38,291 nt of DNA from a virus. The DNA is taken from the IMG/VR virus record IMGVR_UViG_3300022752_000179, positions 1 through 38,291 of that record; one strand, written 5' to 3'. Shown piece after piece: positions 15,410 through 24,038 of the stretch (position 1 is the first letter of the stretch; every line of letters starts with the position of its first letter). Position numbers and translations under genes: made by a program. The notes under the pieces were generated by a model. The model did not search any database. It had not been told where the DNA came from and worked only from the letters and a program-made list of their open reading frames with translations.

Positions 15410-15748
15410 ATGATCGAATTTTATCCAACTGGCATTGGTCAGCATCAGCCAGGAGCGAAGCTTGATGGCGGAAAACCAAGACCACATCTTGTTTTGGGCG
15501 GATTTAGTAACGCACTTGAGGCTGTTACTGTTGTCGGAACATACGGCGCAGTAAAATACACTGACAATGGATGGCGAGAAGTTCCCGGTGGAATTGAGCG
15601 ATATTCAGAGGCAATGATGCGTCACTGGCTGCAAGAATCTCAGGGAATTGATTTTGATGATCAAACTGGCTTTCTTCATGCTGCTCACATTGCTTGGAAT
15701 GCCTTGGCAAGACTTGAACTGATGCTTGGCGAACGTGCTAAAGGATAG
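15410..15748 (+). CDS. dATP/dGTP diphosphohydrolase-like protein (MazZ family)
   Basis: 112 residues from ATG 15410. It matches the family of phage dATP/dGTP diphosphohydrolases (MazZ-like, an all-helical MazG relative): KLDGGKPRPHLV near the N-terminus, VVGTYGAVKYTDNGWREV, RYSEAMMRHWL, and QTGFLHAAHIAWNALARLEL. MazZ turns dGTP into dGMP, which supplies PurZ for 2-aminoadenine (Z) DNA in some cyanophages, but relatives occur widely without PurZ, and no PurZ or DatZ gene is in this window. It more likely adjusts dNTP pools here. No Shine-Dalgarno. It overlaps the next gene. Confidence 0.75.
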   Translation: MIEFYPTGIGQHQPGAKLDGGKPRPHLVLGGFSNALEAVTVVGTYGAVKYTDNGWREVPGGIERYSEAMMRHWLQESQGIDFDDQTGFLHAAHIAWNALARLELMLGERAKG

Positions 15749-16463
15749 AGCTGACGAATTTTATGGTGCAAGACTTGTGGCCGATGCAAGGCTGCATCTT
15801 GGCGCAATCATTAACGGTCAATATTCGGAGCCATTCTTTGTGGCAATGTGCAAGATAATGAGCAATGAGACTTATCTTGGCTATAGAACATTCGCAAATA
15901 GAGAAGTAAAGCTTTCTGGAATAAAAGACTTCTTCTTTAATTCAAGTTATGGCCTTGGCCTGAAAAGGCAAGATATTAGCCTGTTTCTCGCTAATTGCAC
16001 AAAAGCTGCTGTAAAAGATAAATCGCAAAGTCAATACGCATTCAGATTTATTAAGTGGCTAAAAGAGCAAGATCCTGTATTTGATTTCCCCCAGGAGTAT
16101 TTTGAGTACAAGCGAATTAGGTTGTTTATAGCGACTAGATACAAAAAAGATAAACATGAGATGTGGAGGCAATTTCATATGGCAGAAAAGCTTTACACGC
16201 AATATCCACAGCTTCTTTGCGAGATTGGTGGTGGGCGCAAATATAAAAACGTAGAAGAGTGCTGCGATAAGGAAGGAATCAAGGAATCATCAAAAACGAT
16301 GAGACTTGATCTTTATTCAAGTCCTACAATATTTCAAGTACATAAAGTTGCTGAAAGACTTCACAGCAGGCTTGACTCACTGCATAGAAAAGCATTGATC
16401 GCTAAACTCATCGAGTTATACAGGCAATCACAGGCAGCAGAGAATGCGACTACTGGCAATTGA
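15735..16463 (+). CDS. hypothetical protein (about 242 aa)
   Basis: No ATG near the 5' end. GTG 15735 is taken as start; TTG 15726 is possible, and both overlap the MazZ-like gene. The protein is rich in R, K and aromatic residues (FFFNSSYGLGLKRQDISLFL, FRFIKWLKEQDPVFDFPQEY, RLFIATRYKKDKHEMWRQF) with a helical C-terminus (RLHSRLDSLHRKALIAKLIE). The basic character and neighbours (dNTP enzyme, resolvase) suggest DNA metabolism, but no known motif is present. Its 3' end overlaps the resolvase gene by 20 bases. Confidence 0.6.
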   Translation: MLKDRADEFYGARLVADARLHLGAIINGQYSEPFFVAMCKIMSNETYLGYRTFANREVKLSGIKDFFFNSSYGLGLKRQDISLFLANCTKAAVKDKSQSQYAFRFIKWLKEQDPVFDFPQEYFEYKRIRLFIATRYKKDKHEMWRQFHMAEKLYTQYPQLLCEIGGGRKYKNVEECCDKEGIKESSKTMRLDLYSSPTIFQVHKVAERLHSRLDSLHRKALIAKLIELYRQSQAAENATTGN

Positions 16464-16926
16464 TCCCGGTCCCGAAAAATCTGGTTATGTCATCTGGGAT
16501 GGCAAGCGAGTAATAGATTCTGGTCACGAAGAAAACAAAAAAATCAAAGAATACTTGATGGATGGATCCACGCATATAGCGATAGAGATGATTGCTTCAT
16601 ATGGTATGGCCGTTGGTGCATCAGTATTCAATACATGCGTAGAAATTGGAAAGTTTATAGAACATGCTAATATTTATGTGCCAAATGCTCCGGTTGAGTT
16701 AGTTTATAGGAACAATATTAAGGTATTTGTTTGCGGAACTTCAAAAGCAAAAGATACAAATATTCGTCAATCGCTGATTGATTCAATAGGAGTGGTTGGG
16801 ACAAAAGCCAATCCAGGACCGCTTTACGGCGTCAAAAGCCATGCTTGGGCGGCTCTTGCAGTTGCCGTAACGGCGACCAACGATGAACGGCTTCCAGGGC
16901 ACAGACCATTGCAGTCCGCCGCATAG
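16444..16926 (+). CDS. RuvC-like Holliday junction resolvase
   Basis: 160 residues with an RNase-H/RuvC fold: LLAIDPGPEKSGYVIWDG with the first catalytic Asp7, AIEMIASYG with Glu48, and YGVKSHAWAALAVAV near the C-terminus. RuvC enzymes usually have two more acidic residues around the last motif (HxxDA); here the segment is SHAWAA with His133 and no Asp, a variant seen in phage RuvC-like proteins to my recollection. Probable role: resolving branched replication and recombination intermediates before packaging. Its last codons overlap the promoter of the AbrB cassette. Confidence 0.78.
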   Translation: MRLLAIDPGPEKSGYVIWDGKRVIDSGHEENKKIKEYLMDGSTHIAIEMIASYGMAVGASVFNTCVEIGKFIEHANIYVPNAPVELVYRNNIKVFVCGTSKAKDTNIRQSLIDSIGVVGTKANPGPLYGVKSHAWAALAVAVTATNDERLPGHRPLQSAA

Positions 16927-16937
16927 TGTGCTATCTT
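16909..16937 (+). promoter_or_regulatory. promoter candidate of the AbrB cassette
   Basis: TTGCAG (16909-16914), 17 bases, TATCTT (16932-16937), 25 bases before the AbrB-like ATG at 16962 and overlapping the end of the resolvase gene. With the terminator at 17557-17583 it frames a one-gene unit. Confidence 0.55.
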
Positions 16938-16961
16938 TCAGAAGTCGATCACGAAACACAG

Positions 16962-17531
16962 ATGGCATCCAAACGCCGCACCGCTGACACTGCCAGCGAA
17001 TCCACCGTTGAAACCAACTCCCCCGAGGACATGACCGAAGCCACCATCGAAACCACTGAAGCCAAGAAGAAAGCCAAAACCCGCGAGGTTGGTACTCGCC
17101 TGACCGGCGAAGAGCTTCTTGCCTATACCGACACCAACGCTCCTGCTGGTAAAACTGCCGAAGAGCTTGCCCTTGGTGCTGGTTACTTCACCAAGCTGAC
17201 CGATACCGAAACTGGTGCCACAAACACCAAGATTCACGCAGCCGAATACTACAAGGCTGTTGCCGAAGCATCTCGCGGCATCACCATTGCCCCGAGCAAG
17301 CGCACCTATTCACCCCGTCGCAACCGCGCCCAGGTGATCACCGTTGGCGGCACGGGCAATTGTGTGGTCGGTGCCCGCTACACCGCTGTCGCTGGCTTTG
17401 GGCCTGGCTCCAAGGTGTCTGTGGTCGTAGAGGATGGTCGAGTGATCCTCTCGGCCTCCACGGAGGCTGCGGAGGCCCCTGCGGACGCCACAGAGGCCGC
17501 TGAGGGTGATTCGGACGACATGGACCTCTGA
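16962..17531 (+). CDS. AbrB-like transcriptional regulator of the cyanobacterial type
   Basis: 189 residues from ATG 16962. A Thr/Glu/Ala-rich N-terminus (1-40) precedes TRLTGEELLAYTDTNAP (about 45), LALGAGYFTKL and AAEYYKAVAEASRGI, the pattern of the AbrB-like domain found in cyanobacterial AbrB regulators (LTGxxLL, then GY, then F/YYxAxxEA). The C-terminal half (RNRAQVITVGGTGNCVVGAR, GSKVSVVVEDGRVIL) resembles a beta-stranded DNA-binding swap domain. Host AbrB proteins control carbon/nitrogen and other genes, so the phage copy may redirect host metabolism. Codons are clearly GC-richer than neighbours, and its own promoter and terminator suggest a recently acquired 'moron'. Confidence 0.8.
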   Translation: MASKRRTADTASESTVETNSPEDMTEATIETTEAKKKAKTREVGTRLTGEELLAYTDTNAPAGKTAEELALGAGYFTKLTDTETGATNTKIHAAEYYKAVAEASRGITIAPSKRTYSPRRNRAQVITVGGTGNCVVGARYTAVAGFGPGSKVSVVVEDGRVILSASTEAAEAPADATEAAEGDSDDMDL

Positions 17532-17556
17532 TCCATTCAGCACTATGCTGCACACG

Positions 17557-17583
17557 CCCCATCGAAAGATGGGGTTTCTTTTT
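17557..17583 (+). terminator. intrinsic terminator after the AbrB-like gene
   Basis: CCCCATC (17557-17563), GAAA tetraloop, GATGGGG (17568-17574), then TTTCTTTTT. A stable GNRA-loop hairpin closing the AbrB unit 26 bases after its stop. Confidence 0.85.
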
Positions 17584-17597
17584 GCGGATTCGACGGC

Positions 17598-17993
17598 ATG
17601 GCACTTCTTCAATCACAGGCAGCGGCCTGGCGTCAAGCCTTTGATGTTGAAAGTAATTCAAAAAAAGGATCGAATCAGTTCAATCTTCAAATTCACTTAA
17701 TTCAAGAGGAGTACGGGGAGGCGCTTGAGTCGCTCTTTCGACTTGATACAAGCAACGATGACAGCAAGGTTGCCGCACTGAAAGAGCTTGCTGATTTGGT
17801 TTTTGTTTGCTTCCAGGCAGCAGAAAATATGGGCTGGGATCTTGACGAGGCACTGCAAAGAGTATTTGTTAGCAATATGTCAAAACTTGATGACAATGGA
17901 ATGGCAGTTAGGGATAGCAAGGGAAAAGTTCTCAAGGGACCAAAGTATCAGCCTCCATATCTCCTCGACCTTGTTTGTAATGAAAAAAATTGA
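17598..17993 (+). CDS. MazG-like nucleotide pyrophosphohydrolase
   Basis: 131 residues, all-alpha. QEEYGEALE (E37, E38, E41) is the metal-binding EExxE motif, and ELADLVFV (E63, D66) is the ExxD partner, followed by MGWDLDEALQRVFVSNMSKL, and VLKGPKYQPP near the end, as in phage MazG-like proteins. The family hydrolyses dNTPs (or ppGpp, by proposal for cyanophage MazG) to monophosphate and pyrophosphate. With the MazZ-like and Dcd enzymes it probably adjusts the dNTP supply. It starts 15 bases after the AbrB terminator and overlaps the next gene by 14 bases. Confidence 0.82.
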   Translation: MALLQSQAAAWRQAFDVESNSKKGSNQFNLQIHLIQEEYGEALESLFRLDTSNDDSKVAALKELADLVFVCFQAAENMGWDLDEALQRVFVSNMSKLDDNGMAVRDSKGKVLKGPKYQPPYLLDLVCNEKN

Positions 17994-18150
17994 TCCCATT
18001 GATGAAAAAGAGATTGATTCAATCATCAGGCGCTACTGGCGTGATGATGCTTCTCTATCTAATAATCTCAGATTGATTGCAAGTGCCTCTATTCAGTATG
18101 GCCAGCGTCTTCTTATTTCAGAAACATGGAATCGCTTTCATAGATCATGA
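17980..18150 (+). CDS. small hypothetical protein between MazG-like and sigma genes (56 aa)
   Basis: Starts MKKIDPIDEKEIDSIIRRYW. It overlaps the MazG-like gene at its start and the sigma gene at its stop (ATGA), so all three are co-translated. Helical, with Arg/Trp-rich segments (RYWRDDASLSNNLRLIA). It could be a partner of the sigma factor (an adjacent small protein of an anti-sigma kind), but no evidence beyond position. Confidence 0.6.
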   Translation: MKKIDPIDEKEIDSIIRRYWRDDASLSNNLRLIASASIQYGQRLLISETWNRFHRS

Positions 18151-19016
18151 ACGAACAGGCATACCTAAACGAAATTGGGAGATACCCACTCCTCACAAAG
18201 AGCCAGGAAATTGTGCTTGGCACGCAAATTCAGGCATGGATGAAAATTGCAGATAAAGATGAGATGGATTACACGGATGACGAAAAAAGAATTGCAAAGG
18301 CTGGCAGGCGAGCAAGAAAAAAGTTTATTAACTGTAATTTAAGACTTGTTGTTGGAATCGCAAGAAAATACGCCCCATCATGCAATAATCTTGACTTGAT
18401 GGATTTAATTCAAGAGGGAAATATAGGCTTGGTTAGAGCAGTGGAAAAATTTGACCCAAAACTTGGTTATGCAATGAGCACGTATGCTTACTGGTGGATT
18501 AGACAGGCAATACAGAGAGGCATTCATTCAAACGAACATGCGATTAAAATTCCATCAAATATCCAAGAGTCTCTTAGTAAAATACGAAAAAGCATTGAAG
18601 TTCTTGAAAAGAAACTTTTGCGTGTTCCAAGTGCAGAAGAAATTGCAGAAAATTGCAATCTTGCCGTTGGTGAAATCCTGGCTGCCACAAATCTCCCAAG
18701 AGCGTGCGTAAGTCTTGATAGCTCAGCCATAGAAAGTCCAAACTCTACGGCTCTTGTGAATTTTATCTGCGATAAGTCTACAAGCAATTCTATTGAAGAT
18801 GCGGAAGAAAGAATTCAGCTTGAGTCACTGATGACAGCAATTGGAAATCTTGATGAAATTAGTAAGTTTATTCTTATAGAAAGAATGAAGACTCCACCAA
18901 CTTCGTGGAAAAAACTTGCAGCCTTGACTGGCATTGGATTGACCAAGTTGCAGCAAATTGAAATAACCGCAATCAATCGTTGCACTATGTTTATCAGCCT
19001 TGAGCGCCAGCTATAA
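18147..19016 (+). CDS. sigma-70 family RNA polymerase sigma factor
   Basis: 289 residues, like cyanobacterial group 2/3 sigma factors. Region 1.2 (AYLNEIGRYPLLTKSQEIVL), region 2 (NLRLVVGIARKYAPSCNNLD, DLIQEGNIGLVRAVEKFDP, MSTYAYWWIRQAIQRGI) with the core-binding and -10-recognition/melting elements intact, and region 3 (IKIPSNIQESLSKIRK, VPSAEEIAENCNL). Region 4 (LTGIGLTKLQQIEITAINRC, about 255-280) is shorter and diverged, lacking the usual YG...TLEEIG pattern, so -35 recognition may be altered or depend on a partner. It likely directs host RNA polymerase to a subset of phage promoters, perhaps the late tail and lysis genes. Confidence 0.9.
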   Translation: MNEQAYLNEIGRYPLLTKSQEIVLGTQIQAWMKIADKDEMDYTDDEKRIAKAGRRARKKFINCNLRLVVGIARKYAPSCNNLDLMDLIQEGNIGLVRAVEKFDPKLGYAMSTYAYWWIRQAIQRGIHSNEHAIKIPSNIQESLSKIRKSIEVLEKKLLRVPSAEEIAENCNLAVGEILAATNLPRACVSLDSSAIESPNSTALVNFICDKSTSNSIEDAEERIQLESLMTAIGNLDEISKFILIERMKTPPTSWKKLAALTGIGLTKLQQIEITAINRCTMFISLERQL

Positions 19017-19038
19017 AAAAACCTTATATCAGAAATGG

Positions 19039-19067
19039 TTGACAGTTCGCCAGGTTGTGTTTATTGT
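19039..19067 (+). promoter_or_regulatory. candidate promoter after the sigma gene
   Basis: TTGACA (19039-19044), 17 bases, TATTGT (19062-19067), just downstream of the sigma gene and upstream of a 26-codon ORF and dcd. Confidence 0.6.
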
Positions 19068-19095
19068 TAGTTGCCACCATCAATTTCAATCACAG

Positions 19096-19176
19096 ATGAC
19101 CGCACTACCCCCCGAAACCCTGGCCTGGTTGCGCCAGGGCGGCATAGACAACGACTCAACGCATTCAATTATCTAA
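19096..19176 (+). CDS. 26-aa small ORF before dcd
   Basis: ATG 19096 encodes MTALPPETLAWLRQGG and ends in HSII. The leader (AATCACAGATG) resembles those of the AbrB-like and ERF genes, and a promoter lies 29 bases upstream. Codons are GC-rich against AT-rich surroundings. It stops seven bases before the dcd start. It could be a leader peptide regulating dcd or a genuine microprotein; chance occurrence is possible. Confidence 0.45.
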   Translation: MTALPPETLAWLRQGGIDNDSTHSII

Positions 19177-19183
19177 AATAAAG

Positions 19184-19783
19184 GTGACTTTTCTTTCTGA
19201 TCGCTACATCTGCTCCCTTGCTAACGAGGGAATGATCACACCATTTGAATACAACAAAATTCGACAGATTGAGCGTAGTTCAATTCCAGATCAATACAGA
19301 AACTTGGTTAGCTATGGGATGAGTAGCTATGGCTATGATTTAAGACTTGCCGCGCATGACTTTCGGATTTTTCGTCATGTTCCTGGATTGATCGTTGATC
19401 CAAAGGCATTTGATGATCGCTGTCTCGTCAAGGCCAACCTTAATTGCGACGAAAGGGGCGATTACTTCATTCTTCCCGCTCATACCTATGCTCTTGGTGT
19501 GACTTTTGAGAGGCTTAAGCTTCCAAGAAATATAACAGCTTTATTTATTGGCAAAAGTACATACGCCCGCTGTGGAATCATTGTTAATACAACTCCAGGT
19601 GAAGCTGGGTGGGAGGGTTTTCTCACGCTTGAAATTAGTAATAGCAGTGGCGCAGATTGCATGATTTACGCAAATGAAGGAATTTGCCAAGCTCTTTTTA
19701 GCGAAGGAGCACCATGCAATTCTCCGTATGGAAATGGCAAATATCAAAATCAAGAACACGCAGTCACCCTTGCAAGGATTTAG
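19184..19783 (+). CDS. dcd: dCTP deaminase
   Basis: 199 residues, GTG start at 19184 (FLSDRYICSLANEGMITPF matches the LSDxDI start of Dcd). Signatures: SYGYDLRLA near residue 50, GKSTYARCGI from G123, TTPGEAGWEGFLTLEISN with the catalytic Glu140, and ICQALFSEG then YQNQ at the end. The enzyme converts dCTP to dUTP (the bifunctional form gives dUMP), feeding thymidylate synthesis. It is a common phage gene for dNTP balance. The trimeric fold is shared with dUTPase, but the TPGEAGWEG motif favours deaminase. It is followed by zinc-ribbon and DNA-binding genes. Confidence 0.88.
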   Translation: MTFLSDRYICSLANEGMITPFEYNKIRQIERSSIPDQYRNLVSYGMSSYGYDLRLAAHDFRIFRHVPGLIVDPKAFDDRCLVKANLNCDERGDYFILPAHTYALGVTFERLKLPRNITALFIGKSTYARCGIIVNTTPGEAGWEGFLTLEISNSSGADCMIYANEGICQALFSEGAPCNSPYGNGKYQNQEHAVTLARI

Positions 19784-19788
19784 TTTTT

Positions 19789-20049
19789 GTGTCAAGACTC
19801 AGTTGCAAAAACTGCGGAAAGCCGTCTACTATTGTGATGACAAGATTGAATCCAAGTGATGGAGGAAAAATTCGTCGCCATCATTGCAGCTATTGCGAAT
19901 TAAGATGGTGGTCCTACCAGCTACCGTCTCCACCAATTCAAGCTATCCCAGACTGGGTAATAGACTGGGTTGCAAGAGAACCATCAATTAACCAGGAATC
20001 ACTTAAGACGCACCTTTCATCCATCAAAAAAAATCAAAGCCATGGCTAA
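19789..20049 (+). CDS. NrdR-type zinc-ribbon protein
   Basis: 86 residues if it starts at GTG 19789, six bases after dcd; an ATG at 19714 in the same frame lies well inside dcd and is less likely. Residues 5-40 (SCKNCGKPSTIV, SDGGKIRRHHCSYCELRWWS) follow the zinc ribbon of NrdR (CPFC...DSR...IRRRRxCxxCGxRFTTYE): C6, C9, C33, C36. NrdR represses ribonucleotide reductase genes through this ribbon plus an ATP-cone; the ATP-cone is absent here, so it may be a free-standing DNA-binding ribbon. Its place among dNTP and transcription genes fits a regulator. Confidence 0.62.
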   Translation: MSRLSCKNCGKPSTIVMTRLNPSDGGKIRRHHCSYCELRWWSYQLPSPPIQAIPDWVIDWVAREPSINQESLKTHLSSIKKNQSHG

Positions 20050-20398
20050 ATTGCTAACCCAAGAGCAGCTTGTTGATAAAGTATCAAGAATTCTCTCTTA
20101 CCCGCCAATGGCTTCTCATGCTTCAATAGCAGCGGAAACAGGTTTTGATCGAGAAATCATCCGAAGAATCAGGTTTGGGATTAAATACAATCACATACTT
20201 CCTGAGCTGCCACGCATGGAGCAATCAGCGGCAAAGGTAAAATGCAGTCAATGTATTCAGTGGTACTTGCCAAAAGACGCCGAAGATGATAGATATGGTG
20301 ACTGTTCACTCGGAATCCCAGAGTGCAAGCTTCATGGGCAAAACTGGGCTCGGGGTTGCGGAGCTTTCTTGTCAAACGGAGGCGAAGATAATGACTGA
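20042..20398 (+). CDS. Cys-rich protein with HTH-like N-terminus (118 aa)
   Basis: From ATG 20042 (MAKLLTQEQLVDKVSRILSY). HASIAAETGFDREIIRRIRF looks like a helix-turn-helix (about 25-50). The C-terminal half has cysteines in CSQCIQW, GDCSLGIPEC and RGCGAF, probably a metal site. It overlaps the zinc-ribbon gene by eight bases and the alpha-CTD-like gene by eight. Probably a DNA-binding regulator; not assigned to a family. Confidence 0.6.
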   Translation: MAKLLTQEQLVDKVSRILSYPPMASHASIAAETGFDREIIRRIRFGIKYNHILPELPRMEQSAAKVKCSQCIQWYLPKDAEDDRYGDCSLGIPECKLHGQNWARGCGAFLSNGGEDND

Positions 20399-20702
20399 TT
20401 GGAAACTGATTTCAATTAAACTTAAAGATGCTTTGATGAAGACAGAAAAATGGTGGGAACACAAGGAATTATTGCAGCATGTTGAAGAACTGCTTGAACA
20501 AAACAATGAAGGCACTCCAATCAAGTGGCTTGGTCTTTGCGTAAGAATTGAAAATGCTTTAATGCGAAGTGGATGCAATACGATTGAAAAACTTGAAACC
20601 CTGAGAGAAGACCAAATTTTATCAATCCGTGGCCTTGGTCAAAGCTCAATTCCTGACATTAAGATATCACTTGCTAAATGGAATCGTTTACATATTAAAT
20701 AA
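20391..20702 (+). CDS. RNA polymerase alpha C-terminal domain-like protein
   Basis: 103 residues. ATG 20391 has a strong ribosome site (GGAGG, eight bases), rare on this strand. Residues about 50-95 (RIENALMRSGCNTIEKLETL, DQILSIRGLGQSSIPDIKIS) reproduce the alpha-CTD pattern: helix, 'L..aGI.Tv..L', then 'IrglG.ks..eI...L', a helix-hairpin-helix that binds UP-element DNA and activators. The N-terminal half is helical (WWEHKELLQHVEELLEQNN). It could imitate or replace host alpha-CTD at phage promoters. A non-RNAP helix-hairpin-helix DNA-binding protein is the alternative. Confidence 0.65.
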   Translation: MTDWKLISIKLKDALMKTEKWWEHKELLQHVEELLEQNNEGTPIKWLGLCVRIENALMRSGCNTIEKLETLREDQILSIRGLGQSSIPDIKISLAKWNRLHIK

Positions 20703-20788
20703 ACTTTTAGCCATGTCAAGATAGGTTTTGTCAATTTGCTTTTTACTTGGCTTGCTAGTCCACACGCACACGTTCTTCACCAGCAACC

Positions 20789-21052
20789 ATGGAATTTGCT
20801 CTTCCACAAAACCTGTCTCAGCACCTGATTTCTTACGATTCTGAGCTGAAAGCAGAAATTAAACGCCAACGCTCTCAAAATAGGAGCGCATCACCGCATA
20901 AACCACCTACCCATCCTCTCGGAAAAATTGATAATCTCTTTCCTGTAGAAGTAGTGGACAACGACACATTTTCTCGCGATGTTGACTATCTCAACGGCGA
21001 AGCCGCACCGCACAGGTACCGCCGCTACAGCAGCTTTCCATCCTTGGATTGA
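20789..21052 (+). CDS. hypothetical basic protein (87 aa)
   Basis: MEFALPQNLSQHLISYDSEL then a basic Arg/Ser/His/Pro-rich middle (KRQRSQNRSASPHKPPTHP) that looks disordered, and an acidic then Arg/Tyr-rich end. CA-rich leader without Shine-Dalgarno. It starts a block of six small genes. Not recognised. Confidence 0.55.
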   Translation: MEFALPQNLSQHLISYDSELKAEIKRQRSQNRSASPHKPPTHPLGKIDNLFPVEVVDNDTFSRDVDYLNGEAAPHRYRRYSSFPSLD

Positions 21053-21056
21053 TCTA

Positions 21057-21344
21057 ATGAACTACGACGAACTTGATGTCTCCGTCGACCCTTCCGGAGA
21101 CATAATCGTTACCTCCATGGTTGACGACGCGGTTTACATCCAGGGGAGTCAGACACTGGAGGATCCTCCGGAGTACGCTGCTGCTCTGTTTCAACTAACA
21201 ATCACCAAAGCAGAAGCAGCTGACTATGTCTTTGACACCGAAGGAGTGGATGTCGCAGACACAAATGATCTGCATGAGGACGTTATCAAAAATGTGGTCA
21301 TGCACTACGTTGACATAAAGGACAGCTGGTCGTTGGTTAAGTAG
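21057..21344 (+). CDS. conserved small acidic protein, paralogue of the gene at 2500-2784
   Basis: 95 residues from ATG 21057 (MNYDELDVSVDPSGDIIV), four bases after the preceding gene. It shares its whole length with the minus-strand gene at 2500-2784: GDIIVTSMVDDAVYIQGSQ and LEDPPEYAAALFQLTI are near-identical blocks, and both end in VDIKDSWS/IDWKDKWI. This copy has a higher GC content at third positions. Unknown function; duplication in one phage is unusual for so small a gene. Confidence 0.72.
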   Translation: MNYDELDVSVDPSGDIIVTSMVDDAVYIQGSQTLEDPPEYAAALFQLTITKAEAADYVFDTEGVDVADTNDLHEDVIKNVVMHYVDIKDSWSLVK

Positions 21345-21399
21345 TACTTGGTCCTGAGCACGACCTTAAACTGCTCCTGTTCCGCCACTCACCGCTGCC

Positions 21400-21690
21400 A
21401 TGAATCAGACTATTGTTCACGTTTACAAGATCAAAGCTGAAGACCAAGAGAATGCAACGTTGGTTTTGTCTCCAGCAGAACCTGTTCAGCCTTCTGTCAA
21501 GATTTCTGACGGTACGACAGAAGTTCATGTAACTGGTCTTTCCCAGAGCCAGCTGCAGGAAAGCATCTGTAAGTACATCAGCATGCTTAAGTACTTTCCA
21601 AAGAAGAACCAAGCAACAAAAGAGTGGCTCAAGGAACTTCACGCGGTTCTTTGCGACACAATTGAAGCCTTGAACGATAATAACGACTGA
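21400..21690 (+). CDS. hypothetical protein (96 aa)
   Basis: MNQTIVHVYKIKAEDQENAT; beta-rich first half with Pro/Val-rich turn, then a helical half (SQLQESICKYISMLKYFP, EWLKELHAVLCDTIEALND). Acidic. Preceded by a C-rich leader. No family recognised. Confidence 0.6.
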   Translation: MNQTIVHVYKIKAEDQENATLVLSPAEPVQPSVKISDGTTEVHVTGLSQSQLQESICKYISMLKYFPKKNQATKEWLKELHAVLCDTIEALNDNND

Positions 21691-21727
21691 TTATTATCAC
21701 TCAACCCTGTTCATTTTCCTAACAGCC

Positions 21728-22063
21728 ATGCAAACCTCTCTTTCGTCTATCGAAGTCAACGGCGTCACCTACGTTCCTGCAGGAACAGGTGGTGCAAATG
21801 TTCTGCCCAGTGGAAGCCGCAACGTGATCGTCATTGATCGCGGTTGGATCTTTGCCGGTGACACCACTTTTGATGAAGTGACCCAAGAGTACACCCTGTC
21901 GAACGCCGCCTGGGTGTTCCGCTGGGAATCCGTTGGTTTTGACGGCGTCATTTCCGATCCTAAGTCCAGTAAAGTGACACTGAAAAAGATGGCAAATCCA
22001 GTTGTGGTGCCAAAGGGATCCGTCATTTTCAAAGTGCCTGTAGACGCAAAGTGGGGCCTGTGA
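21728..22063 (+). CDS. conserved beta-rich phage protein (111 aa)
   Basis: VIVIDRGWIFAGDTTFDEV, YTLSNAAWVFRWESVGFDGV, SSKVTLKKMANPVVVPKGSV and a final VPVDAKWGL form a repeated strand pattern like small uncharacterised phage proteins of a DUF6948-like type (R-x-x-WxFAG then WVFRWxS); the family call is tentative. The stop overlaps the start of the Gly-Tyr repeat gene (TGATG), so the two are translationally coupled. Confidence 0.62.
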   Translation: MQTSLSSIEVNGVTYVPAGTGGANVLPSGSRNVIVIDRGWIFAGDTTFDEVTQEYTLSNAAWVFRWESVGFDGVISDPKSSKVTLKKMANPVVVPKGSVIFKVPVDAKWGL

Positions 22064-22395
22064 TGGCAACCATTGACACCGTGGGAGGTTCGCCTCCCAC
22101 TTTCTTCCCAGTAGGCAACAGCCTTGGCGACGGCTACGGCGACGGCTCCGGCTACGGCTACGGCTACGGCGACGGCTACGGCTACGGCTACGGCTCCGGC
22201 TACGGCAACGGCTACGGCTATGGCGACGGCTATGGCGACGGCTACGGCGACGGCTACGGCGACGGCTCCGGCTACGGCTACGGCTATGGCGACGGCTATG
22301 GCGACGGCTACGGCGACGGCTACGGCGACGGCTACGGCGACGGCTCCGGCTACGGCTTCGGCACTATCTCCACCCTGACAAAACGCTGGACATGA
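22063..22395 (+). CDS. Gly-Tyr-Gly-Asp tandem-repeat protein (110 aa)
   Basis: About 20 ordinary residues (MATIDTVGGSPPTFFPVGNS) are followed by roughly 80 residues made only of G, Y, D, S and rare N or F (GYGDGYGDGSGYGYGYGDG pattern), then GTISTLTKRWT. The frame is confirmed by coupling at both ends: TGATG with the upstream gene and ATGA with the downstream gene, whereas the alternative Ala-Thr repeat frame is not connected. Gly-Tyr repeats are typical of disordered, self-associating or sticky proteins. Function unknown; a terminator-like hairpin lies in its first codons. Confidence 0.65.
   Translation: MATIDTVGGSPPTFFPVGNSLGDGYGDGSGYGYGYGDGYGYGYGSGYGNGYGYGDGYGDGYGDGYGDGSGYGYGYGDGYGDGYGDGYGDGYGDGSGYGFGTISTLTKRWT
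22081..22107 (+). terminator. terminator-like hairpin at the start of the repeat gene
   Basis: GTGGGAGG (22081-22088), TTCG tetraloop, CCTCCCAC (22093-22100), then TTTCTT. The stem is perfect and very stable, the T-tract is short. It sits 18 bases inside the repeat gene, so it could end most transcription from upstream or act as an attenuator. Confidence 0.5.
22126..22362 (+). repeat. GGC-(T/G)AC hexanucleotide tandem repeat
   Basis: About 237 bases of six-base units GGCTAC and GGCGAC with interspersed GGCTCC, arranged in longer blocks (the pattern GDGSGYGYGYGDG recurs), so higher-order duplication has occurred. It encodes the Gly-Tyr repeat. Such tracts change length readily by slippage. 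Not a CRISPR array: no spacers. Confidence 0.85.
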
Positions 22396-22649
22396 GTTTC
22401 TTCAATAAATACGTCGCCCTTGTAGCGGATGCTACGGGAAGATACGCAACAGTGTTTGTGGAAGCCTCTAACTGGGGCGCTGCAATCTCTCAACTAGAAG
22501 ATCTCGGGTGTGAGGTTGTAGAGAATCAAACAGCTGGCTACGACTCAAATGACCTGCAAACCAAAGAAACCCGACAAGAAGTAGGTCTTATTGATATTGA
22601 CGATCTACTCACACAAACAGACTTCATTTCTCACGATTGCTATCTTTGA
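22392..22649 (+). CDS. hypothetical protein (85 aa)
   Basis: ATG 22392 overlaps the repeat gene's stop (ATGA). MSFFNKYVALVADATGRYAT and EASNWGAAISQLEDLGCEVV suggest a small alpha/beta domain; the C-terminus is acidic. Last gene of the plus-strand block; it converges with the minus-strand gene at 22624-22866, overlapping by 26 bases. Not recognised. Confidence 0.6.
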   Translation: MSFFNKYVALVADATGRYATVFVEASNWGAAISQLEDLGCEVVENQTAGYDSNDLQTKETRQEVGLIDIDDLLTQTDFISHDCYL

Positions 22650-22866
22650 GCACAAGCTCTACCTCAAGCTGCCTCACTCGTCCCAAGAGTAAGTTAATTG
22701 TTGCTTCGTGCTGATACCAGTCAACAATTAACTTATCCGCCAACTCTCCGATATCCTCTCGCTCAAGCTTCTTTGCCTTGTGCCTGTCCATCTCGCGCTC
22801 TAGCTGGGCAGTCAGACTGGGTTCGGGGATGAACCACTTGCCGCAACTCTCAAGAGGATCTGCCAT
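22624..22866 (-). CDS. coiled-coil small protein (80 aa)
   Basis: MADPLESCGKWFIPEPSL then a long amphipathic charged helix (LEREMDRHKAKKLEREDIGE, INLLLGRVRQLEVELVL). It resembles short coiled-coil proteins near lysis genes of cyanophage-like genomes, by recollection only. It starts divergently from the plus-strand gene at 22865, the two ATGs sharing a CATG palindrome. It could be a chaperone or spanin-like component, but it has no signal or membrane segment. Confidence 0.6.
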   Translation of the reverse strand: MADPLESCGKWFIPEPSLTAQLEREMDRHKAKKLEREDIGELADKLIVDWYQHEATINLLLGRVRQLEVELVLKDSNREK

Positions 22867-23062
22867 GACTCAGCCACAACTCAATCAGTCTAATGGACAT
22901 AGCAACATGCCATACGTTACAGTTGCAACAGATGAGCGTGGATCAGCTTGCTGGTTTGTTGTTGAAGGCGAAAAGAGGACTAAATTTATGTGCGGCAAGG
23001 AAGCATTTCATGTGCTTGGCTTGGCTATTAAGCGGCTTCCTGGAGAACAGAGATCCAAATAG
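22865..23062 (+). CDS. small hypothetical protein (65 aa)
   Basis: ATG 22865 preceded by AGAGGA at a good distance. YVTVATDERGSACWFVVEGE and FHVLGLAIKRLPGEQ look like a small beta-alpha domain. The start overlaps the divergent minus-strand gene by two bases and the end overlaps the end of the endolysin gene by 35. Antisense position makes it less certain. Unknown function. Confidence 0.5.
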   Translation: MTQPQLNQSNGHSNMPYVTVATDERGSACWFVVEGEKRTKFMCGKEAFHVLGLAIKRLPGEQRSK

Positions 23063-24038
23063 TTCCAAGACCAAGCAGCGGAAGAATACGCTCTCGTATA
23101 TCTTGATTATGCAATCGAATGCAGCCTTGAGTCGGATGCAATTCTTGCCTTGGATTCCAGGCACCTGGCCAGCCGCAGGCTGATCCTCCGCCGTGAATCA
23201 TGATTCCGTCTCGATATGGCCTGCTGGTTGGCCCCTCCTGTCCCTCCAGGCCCTCCAGGTCGAGCGAATACCAGCCATAGGCGCGACGATCAGGTGTGAA
23301 TTTTGCGGTTGGGTCTTGATCGTAATCCCTGTAAATACCATTTACGTTGATCCTGTAAAGCCCTGGAGGGGTATCGGTTCCGGGGCGATTCCACTCCGCC
23401 TCTCCCCCTTGTCCACGGCAAAGGCATGGAATACGCCATAGTCTTTTGCCATCATGCGTCCATGCAGTAAGCAGTTCGTTTACATCATTTGCAATCATGT
23501 GATGATCGCCAGGTTTTAGGTCTGGCTTCATTTTGGGGCCAACCATTCCAGGCGGCCAAACTGGTAAAGATGACTGCTGAGGCTGTTCAATAAAAAGCTT
23601 GACTTCTTCTGCGCGGCGGCGAATCAAACCAGGCAGTGCAACACTGCCAGCTTTATTCCAGCGTGGAAGTTCTTCTTTAATAACGATATCTTCATTCTCG
23701 CCATTAAGCAATCGCCGCCTAAGCGTGCTATCACTTACAGCTCCAAGTCCAACATTATATGCCCATGACACAATAGCTGCGGTTTTATTTGGTGACCATT
23801 TTTGAACAACAGGAATAAGCTTGGAAAGTTTTTGGCAAATCTTGGTAACTTCATTTTTTAGCAACAAATCGGCTTCTTGAGTTGAAATTGTATCTCCCTG
23901 TTTTACGGGAACACCATTGACAATTGTTGCCCCCCATCCAATTGTCCATACACCAGCAGGACAAATGTAAGCATCGAGCCTGCACCCCTCAAACCCTTTA
24001 ATAAATTTAGTTGCAATTGCAATTGCGTCGTTTGACAT
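23028..24038 (-). CDS. bimodular endolysin: GH24 lysozyme fused to L,D-transpeptidase (YkuD) domain
   Basis: 336 residues. The N-terminal domain (1-155) is a T4-type lysozyme: E17, C26 and T32 in FEGCRLDAYICPAGVWTIGWG have exactly the E-x8-D/C-x5-T spacing of the catalytic triad (Cys replaces Asp as in P1 Lyz); ALPGLIRRRAEEVKLF closes the fold. After a Pro-rich linker (PVWPPGMVGPKMKPD) a second domain has RLWRIPCLCRGQ, PGTDTPPGLYRI, then IMIHGGG (H282) and HPTQGCIRLHNQD (C306, R308), the Cys-His active site of L,D-transpeptidases. It would cleave glycan strands and may act on or bind peptide stems. No signal peptide, so it needs the holin. Confidence 0.85.
   Translation of the reverse strand: MSNDAIAIATKFIKGFEGCRLDAYICPAGVWTIGWGATIVNGVPVKQGDTISTQEADLLLKNEVTKICQKLSKLIPVVQKWSPNKTAAIVSWAYNVGLGAVSDSTLRRRLLNGENEDIVIKEELPRWNKAGSVALPGLIRRRAEEVKLFIEQPQQSSLPVWPPGMVGPKMKPDLKPGDHHMIANDVNELLTAWTHDGKRLWRIPCLCRGQGGEAEWNRPGTDTPPGLYRINVNGIYRDYDQDPTAKFTPDRRAYGWYSLDLEGLEGQEGPTSRPYRDGIMIHGGGSACGWPGAWNPRQELHPTQGCIRLHNQDIRERILPLLGLGTIWISVLQEAA

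Follow-up and report, generated by a model that had tools for sequence, protein, structure and literature searches.

A phage gene for a detached RNA polymerase alpha C-terminal domain, a candidate promoter-binding accessory factor

Many bacterial activators, and UP elements as well, act through the C-terminal domain of the RNA polymerase alpha subunit (alpha-CTD). A 38.3 kb linear IMG/VR virus record, referred to here as the window (the whole stretch of DNA that was analysed), contains a short gene that was predicted from its sequence to encode a mimic of this domain. What is the encoded protein, and what could a phage do with an alpha-CTD that is separate from alpha? The gene and its immediate surroundings are as follows.

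Positions 20391..20702, plus strand: gene for a stand-alone alpha-CTD protein of 103 residues (open reading frame; Pfam PF03118, 42.4 bits; AlphaFold models).
Positions 20378..20382, plus strand: Shine-Dalgarno sequence GGAGG, 8 nt before the ATG of the alpha-CTD gene (sequence; pairing energy).
Positions 20042..20398, plus strand: preceding small gene, with distant relatives in L007 and L090 (open reading frame list).

The reading frame is intact from the ATG at 20391 to the stop codon at 20700-20702. A second in-frame ATG lies 5' of this, at 20286. Because that codon is deep within the preceding gene and the Shine-Dalgarno sequence favours 20391, we take 20391 as the start. The original prediction counted this Shine-Dalgarno sequence among the best on its strand; in fact, it is the strongest of the 24 plus-strand starts tested, with a pairing energy to the anti-Shine-Dalgarno of -11.5 kcal/mol (next best, -8.5 kcal/mol). 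The preceding gene overlaps the start of the alpha-CTD gene by 8 nt, and translational coupling between the two is possible.

The domain assignment was examined by sequence. Residues 36-95 match RNA_pol_A_CTD (PF03118) with 42.4 bits and an E-value of 5.7e-11 (cut-off 23.8), a region slightly wider than the residues of about 50-95 in which the alpha-CTD pattern had been noticed; identity to alpha-CTDs of this family is 30-37%. An independent HMM built from other alpha-CTDs gives 39.4 bits, and the maximum in 2000 shuffles is 12.0, so the match is far beyond chance. A sequence search of the PDB gave 25 matches at E up to 10, each of them an RNA polymerase alpha subunit. In Pfam, no generic helix-hairpin-helix family (HHH_5 and others) matches the protein at E up to 1, so that no such family outside RNA polymerase is the better match; Sigma70_r4 has no match in it, and PHROGs holds no family for it. 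The rpoA equivalog models are matched by their last part only, far below cut-off. NCBIfam NF005841 (PRK07758 hypothetical protein), a model of 95 positions that has an alpha-CTD-like match in common with the 103-residue protein, reaches 24.7 bits against a cut-off of 115, and the protein is not a member.

The AlphaFold prediction, made together with 11 phage alpha-CTD sequences, divides the protein into two parts.

Positions 20391..20510, plus strand: N-terminal residues 1-40, predicted two-helix hairpin (AlphaFold pLDDT about 78-80).
Positions 20511..20684, plus strand: alpha-CTD fold, residues 41-98 (structure superposition; residue alignment).

The pLDDT is 95-98 over residues 41-100. In this part, the model superimposes on alpha-CTDs with deviations of 0.9-1.7 Å. 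The alpha-CTD of Streptomyces coelicolor (7vpd_S) is matched at 0.9 Å over 57 residues (Z 11.3, 37% identity) and that of Synechococcus elongatus, solved with RpaA (9dvt_A), at 1.6 Å over 59 residues (Z 10.8, 30% identity). The N-terminal lobes of Rad51 and Dmc1 have the same helix-hairpin-helix arrangement and reach Z 9-10 with 12-20% identity; therefore, the family call rests on sequence and not on the fold alone. Profile, structure and residues (below) thus all support alpha-CTD identity; the domain is better described as homologous and detached than as a mimic. The helical N-terminus had been called unrelated, in agreement with the predicted hairpin, for which no Pfam family scores above cut-off in residues 1-40. 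The hairpin may be a partner-binding part of the protein. The N-terminal dimerisation and assembly domain of RpoA is absent, and the C-terminal domain is the sole Pfam match in the 103 residues. Without an assembly domain, the protein is unable to take the place of alpha in RNA polymerase and must act in trans.

Escherichia coli alpha-CTD contacts the minor groove through R265, N268, C269, G296, K298, S299, and E302. The original prediction hinged on these residues, and most of them are kept: in the residue alignment (E. coli numbering, verified against a Salmonella RpoA sequence), R265, N268, G296, and S299 correspond to R52, N55, G83, and S86 of the phage protein, and E302 is replaced by aspartate (D89). 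In contrast, C269 is changed to alanine and K298 to serine. Among the aligned phage sequences, conservation reaches at least 90% at residues V51, R52, N55, L57, G61, T64, and G83. The C-terminal domain carries 10 lysine or arginine residues and 6 aspartate or glutamate residues. The 261 determinant of E. coli alpha-CTD meets sigma region 4. In the phage protein, the acidic residues of this determinant (D259 and E261) are replaced by tryptophan and glycine, and the determinant is lost.

On the same strand, 1.4 kb upstream of the alpha-CTD gene, the phage has a sigma factor gene. In the window, replication and recombination genes run rightward up to sigma, and lysozyme and lambda-type tail genes run leftward in the right part.

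Positions 18147..19016, plus strand: phage sigma-70-type factor with regions 1.2, 2, and 3 and a divergent region 4 (Pfam, PHROGs, TIGR02997, clade alignment).
Positions 19714..20049, plus strand: zinc-ribbon protein, two genes upstream of the alpha-CTD gene (weak NrdR-type match).
Positions 19017..23027, plus strand: cargo that separates sigma from the convergent lysozyme gene (synteny; comparison with 23 junctions in relatives).

Against the cyanobacterial RpoD-like model TIGR02997, the sigma factor reaches 214.7 bits, below the cut-off of 384.5, and its best phage relatives are in Synechococcus phages S-CBS1 and S-CBS3 and cyanophage KBS-S-2A. The arrangement is shared by S-CBS1 and S-LBS1, where sigma is close to the convergent lysozyme gene. 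From these observations, the host is likely a cyanobacterium; a search of genome contigs with the sigma factor matched no cyanobacterial genome. Region 4 of sigma (18147-19016; L003-L038) is specialised and conserved in the clade. The Pfam region 4 model misses that of the window sigma factor, and the positions with which other sigma factors contact the -35 element appear to be altered. Promoter and terminator scans of 15700-23200 gave sites no more numerous than in shuffles.

Several neighbouring features were also observed. The zinc-ribbon protein matches PF22811 with 20.1 bits, below the cut-off of 27.2. The gene at 16926-17531 (plus strand) has a sub-threshold match to the AbrB-like regulator PF14250 and is conserved in the clade beside MazG and sigma. 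In the protein encoded at 23028-24038 (minus strand), a lysozyme is joined to an L,D-transpeptidase-type domain of the YkuD family; both parts exceed their cut-offs, with 123.1 bits for Phage_lysozyme and 37.3 bits for YkuD. A hexanucleotide array at 22126-22362 (GGCTAC, 39.5 copies, 81% matches) lies within an open reading frame for a Gly-Tyr-Asp-rich repeat.

Most of the three dozen closest IMG/VR relatives of the sigma factor have a common gene order: exonuclease, two small genes, AbrB-like, MazG-like, sigma, and convergent lysozyme. Of 23 junctions, 17 have a gap between sigma and lysozyme of at most about 14 nt, and the other 6 have one of 488-1344 nt. In the window, this gap is 4.0 kb and holds the genes for dCTP deaminase, the zinc-ribbon protein, the alpha-CTD protein, and others. 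None of the 23 equivalent junctions carries the alpha-CTD gene. Judging from this synteny, therefore, the gene is accessory, optional cargo. Conversely, sigma with its specialised region 4 is conserved in relatives without the gene, so sigma does not need it. We also considered whether the presence of the alpha-CTD gene goes together with a divergent sigma region 4. This was rejected, because relatives that yielded no alpha-CTD have a region 4 that is just as specialised.

A search for PF03118 in 50 records with sigma relatives, many of which are fragments, gave a single match, and the window genome is the only one found in the sigma clade with the stand-alone architecture. The match is in a 58.7 kb record (IMGVR_UViG_3300007177_000028, G035) and is a 156-residue protein (P0002; L083:1234-1704) that combines an NrdR-like zinc ribbon with an alpha-CTD, each above its Pfam cut-off. 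The motifs ALMRxGxxTI and DQILxIRGxG occur in both proteins. Unlike the 103-residue protein, the G035 alpha-CTD has lost R265 and N268 and is joined to its zinc ribbon. Synechococcus phage S-SRP02 has an unannotated open reading frame with a zinc ribbon similar to that of G035 and without an alpha-CTD.

No relative of the 103-residue protein itself was found in the viral or genome collections scanned. Pattern scans of viral contigs yielded 26 loci with VRxxNCLKRxGxxT and 3 with a second pattern. Ten of the proteins were scanned with Pfam: all ten pass the alpha-CTD cut-off, and eight (L106, L107, L112, L113, L117, L118, L127, and L131; the smallest, L106, has 115 residues) also pass that of sigma-70 region 4 in the same polypeptide. 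These fusions are located in phages other than that of the window. They likewise associate a phage alpha-CTD with sigma, but in one polypeptide, whereas the window has a separate gene for sigma. The window protein's layout, a short N-terminus followed by an alpha-CTD, recurs in tailed phages in L104 (99 residues), L115 (131 residues), Goe8 c00050, Morrill gp24, Mithril A0A5Q2WLP1, and uncultured Caudovirales A0A6J5L490; their N-termini differ from that of the window protein, and identity is about 20-35%. Sigma region 4 has no match in the L104 or L115 record. A further protein, L092, is alpha-CTD-like with 16.4 bits, below the Pfam cut-off. Among discarded candidates, L002 is a chance match (a terminase-like protein sharing NEGTPIKW), L105 looks like one (a 63-residue frame), and another pattern scan gave mostly portal-like proteins, its L093 being the G035 protein again.

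Among GenBank phages, Bacillus phage Goe8, Microbacterium phage Morrill, and Mycobacterium phage Marley1013 also have alpha-CTD domains. Entries already named RNA polymerase alpha C-terminal domain proteins exist in the viral structure library; the matches that Foldseek gave to viral proteins, with E above 0.001, serve only to show this naming. A literature search retrieved no study of a phage-encoded alpha-CTD and no paper that assigns such proteins a function. Phage alpha-CTD proteins are thus already named in databases, and the window protein adds another to an uncharacterised kind.

To place the domain among alpha-CTDs, we counted the positions of a 54-residue core that it has in common with others: 20 with G035, 20 with Goe8, 19 with Bacillus subtilis, 18 with the enterobacterial sequence, and 16-17 with cyanobacterial RpoA sequences, the last read from PDB alignments that were retrieved with a query used only as bait. 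The protein is no closer to cyanobacterial RpoA than to other alpha-CTDs, so a recent capture from the rpoA of a cyanobacterial host is rejected. The same comparison, together with the intact frame, the kept core residues, the protein's own start with its strong Shine-Dalgarno sequence, and its distinct N-terminus, makes it very improbable that the gene is a decaying fragment of a captured rpoA with no present function, even though the C-terminal domain occurs alone, within variable cargo, and the viral and genome collections yielded no close relative.

We tentatively favour the reading that the 103-residue protein is a trans-acting, promoter-binding accessory factor that enhances phage transcription. 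This reading fits the alpha-CTD domain with its kept DNA-contact residues and its excess of basic over acidic residues, the missing assembly domain, and the presence of a phage sigma gene upstream. The detached alpha-CTD would bind AT-rich upstream promoter DNA in trans, and the N-terminal hairpin would bind a partner, which may be the protein itself, RNA polymerase, or a phage factor. Host polymerase, perhaps with the phage sigma factor as a possible functional partner of the protein, would thereby be recruited to or stabilised at phage promoters. The protein would be an optional enhancer of phage transcription and not an essential part. The original prediction had already proposed that the protein may occupy UP elements or activator sites or tether another phage protein to promoters; new with respect to it are the nearby sigma gene, the accessory nature of the alpha-CTD gene, and the zinc-ribbon and sigma region 4 fusions of other phages. 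The changed K298 and C269, the lost 261 determinant, and the conservation of sigma in relatives without the gene weigh against an accessory factor, as do the restriction of the architecture to one genome of the clade and the occurrence of sigma region 4 fusions in other phages. It is unlikely that the phage has a split, two-part promoter system, in which its own sigma with the divergent region 4 and the trans-acting alpha-CTD would work together and the host core would use a non-covalent, phage-supplied UP-element arm.

The main rival to an accessory factor is a decoy for host shut-off, which we consider possible but rather doubtful: abundant free alpha-CTD would occupy UP elements or bind host activators, such as the response regulator RpaA, and uncouple them from host RNA polymerase during takeover. 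A protein that cannot enter polymerase, is made from a very strong Shine-Dalgarno sequence, as a competitor would need, and is encoded by an accessory cargo gene would suit this role. Moreover, its fold agrees with that of the cyanobacterial alpha-CTD in the structure with RpaA and kaiBC promoter DNA (9dvt), and phages do target the alpha-CTD surface, since T4 Alt and ModA ADP-ribosylate Arg265 of alpha during takeover (PMC2988021). However, with 16-17 of 54 core positions matching cyanobacterial alpha-CTD, a host activator may not recognise the protein. In addition, the alpha-CTD is fused to DNA-recognition modules in other phages, which suggests recruitment more than titration; these fusions, to sigma region 4 or to a zinc ribbon, lead us to favour promoter recruitment over a purely inhibitory role, only moderately. 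A role outside transcription initiation, for example with the hairpin tethering a recombination or packaging protein to DNA, is improbable. The fold in common with the Rad51 and Dmc1 lobes and the recombination genes in the early region point that way, but the sequence matches are specific to RNA polymerase alpha, identity to the Rad51-type chains is low, and the nearest annotated neighbours of the gene are sigma, dCTP deaminase, and the zinc ribbon.

The stand-alone, zinc-ribbon-fused, and sigma-region-4-fused proteins suggest that phages reuse the alpha-CTD as a module. If the phage supplies its own detached alpha-CTD to promoters, this would show that the alpha-CTD arm can act in trans, and a genome that pairs a sigma gene with an alpha-CTD gene lends itself to a clear biochemical test.
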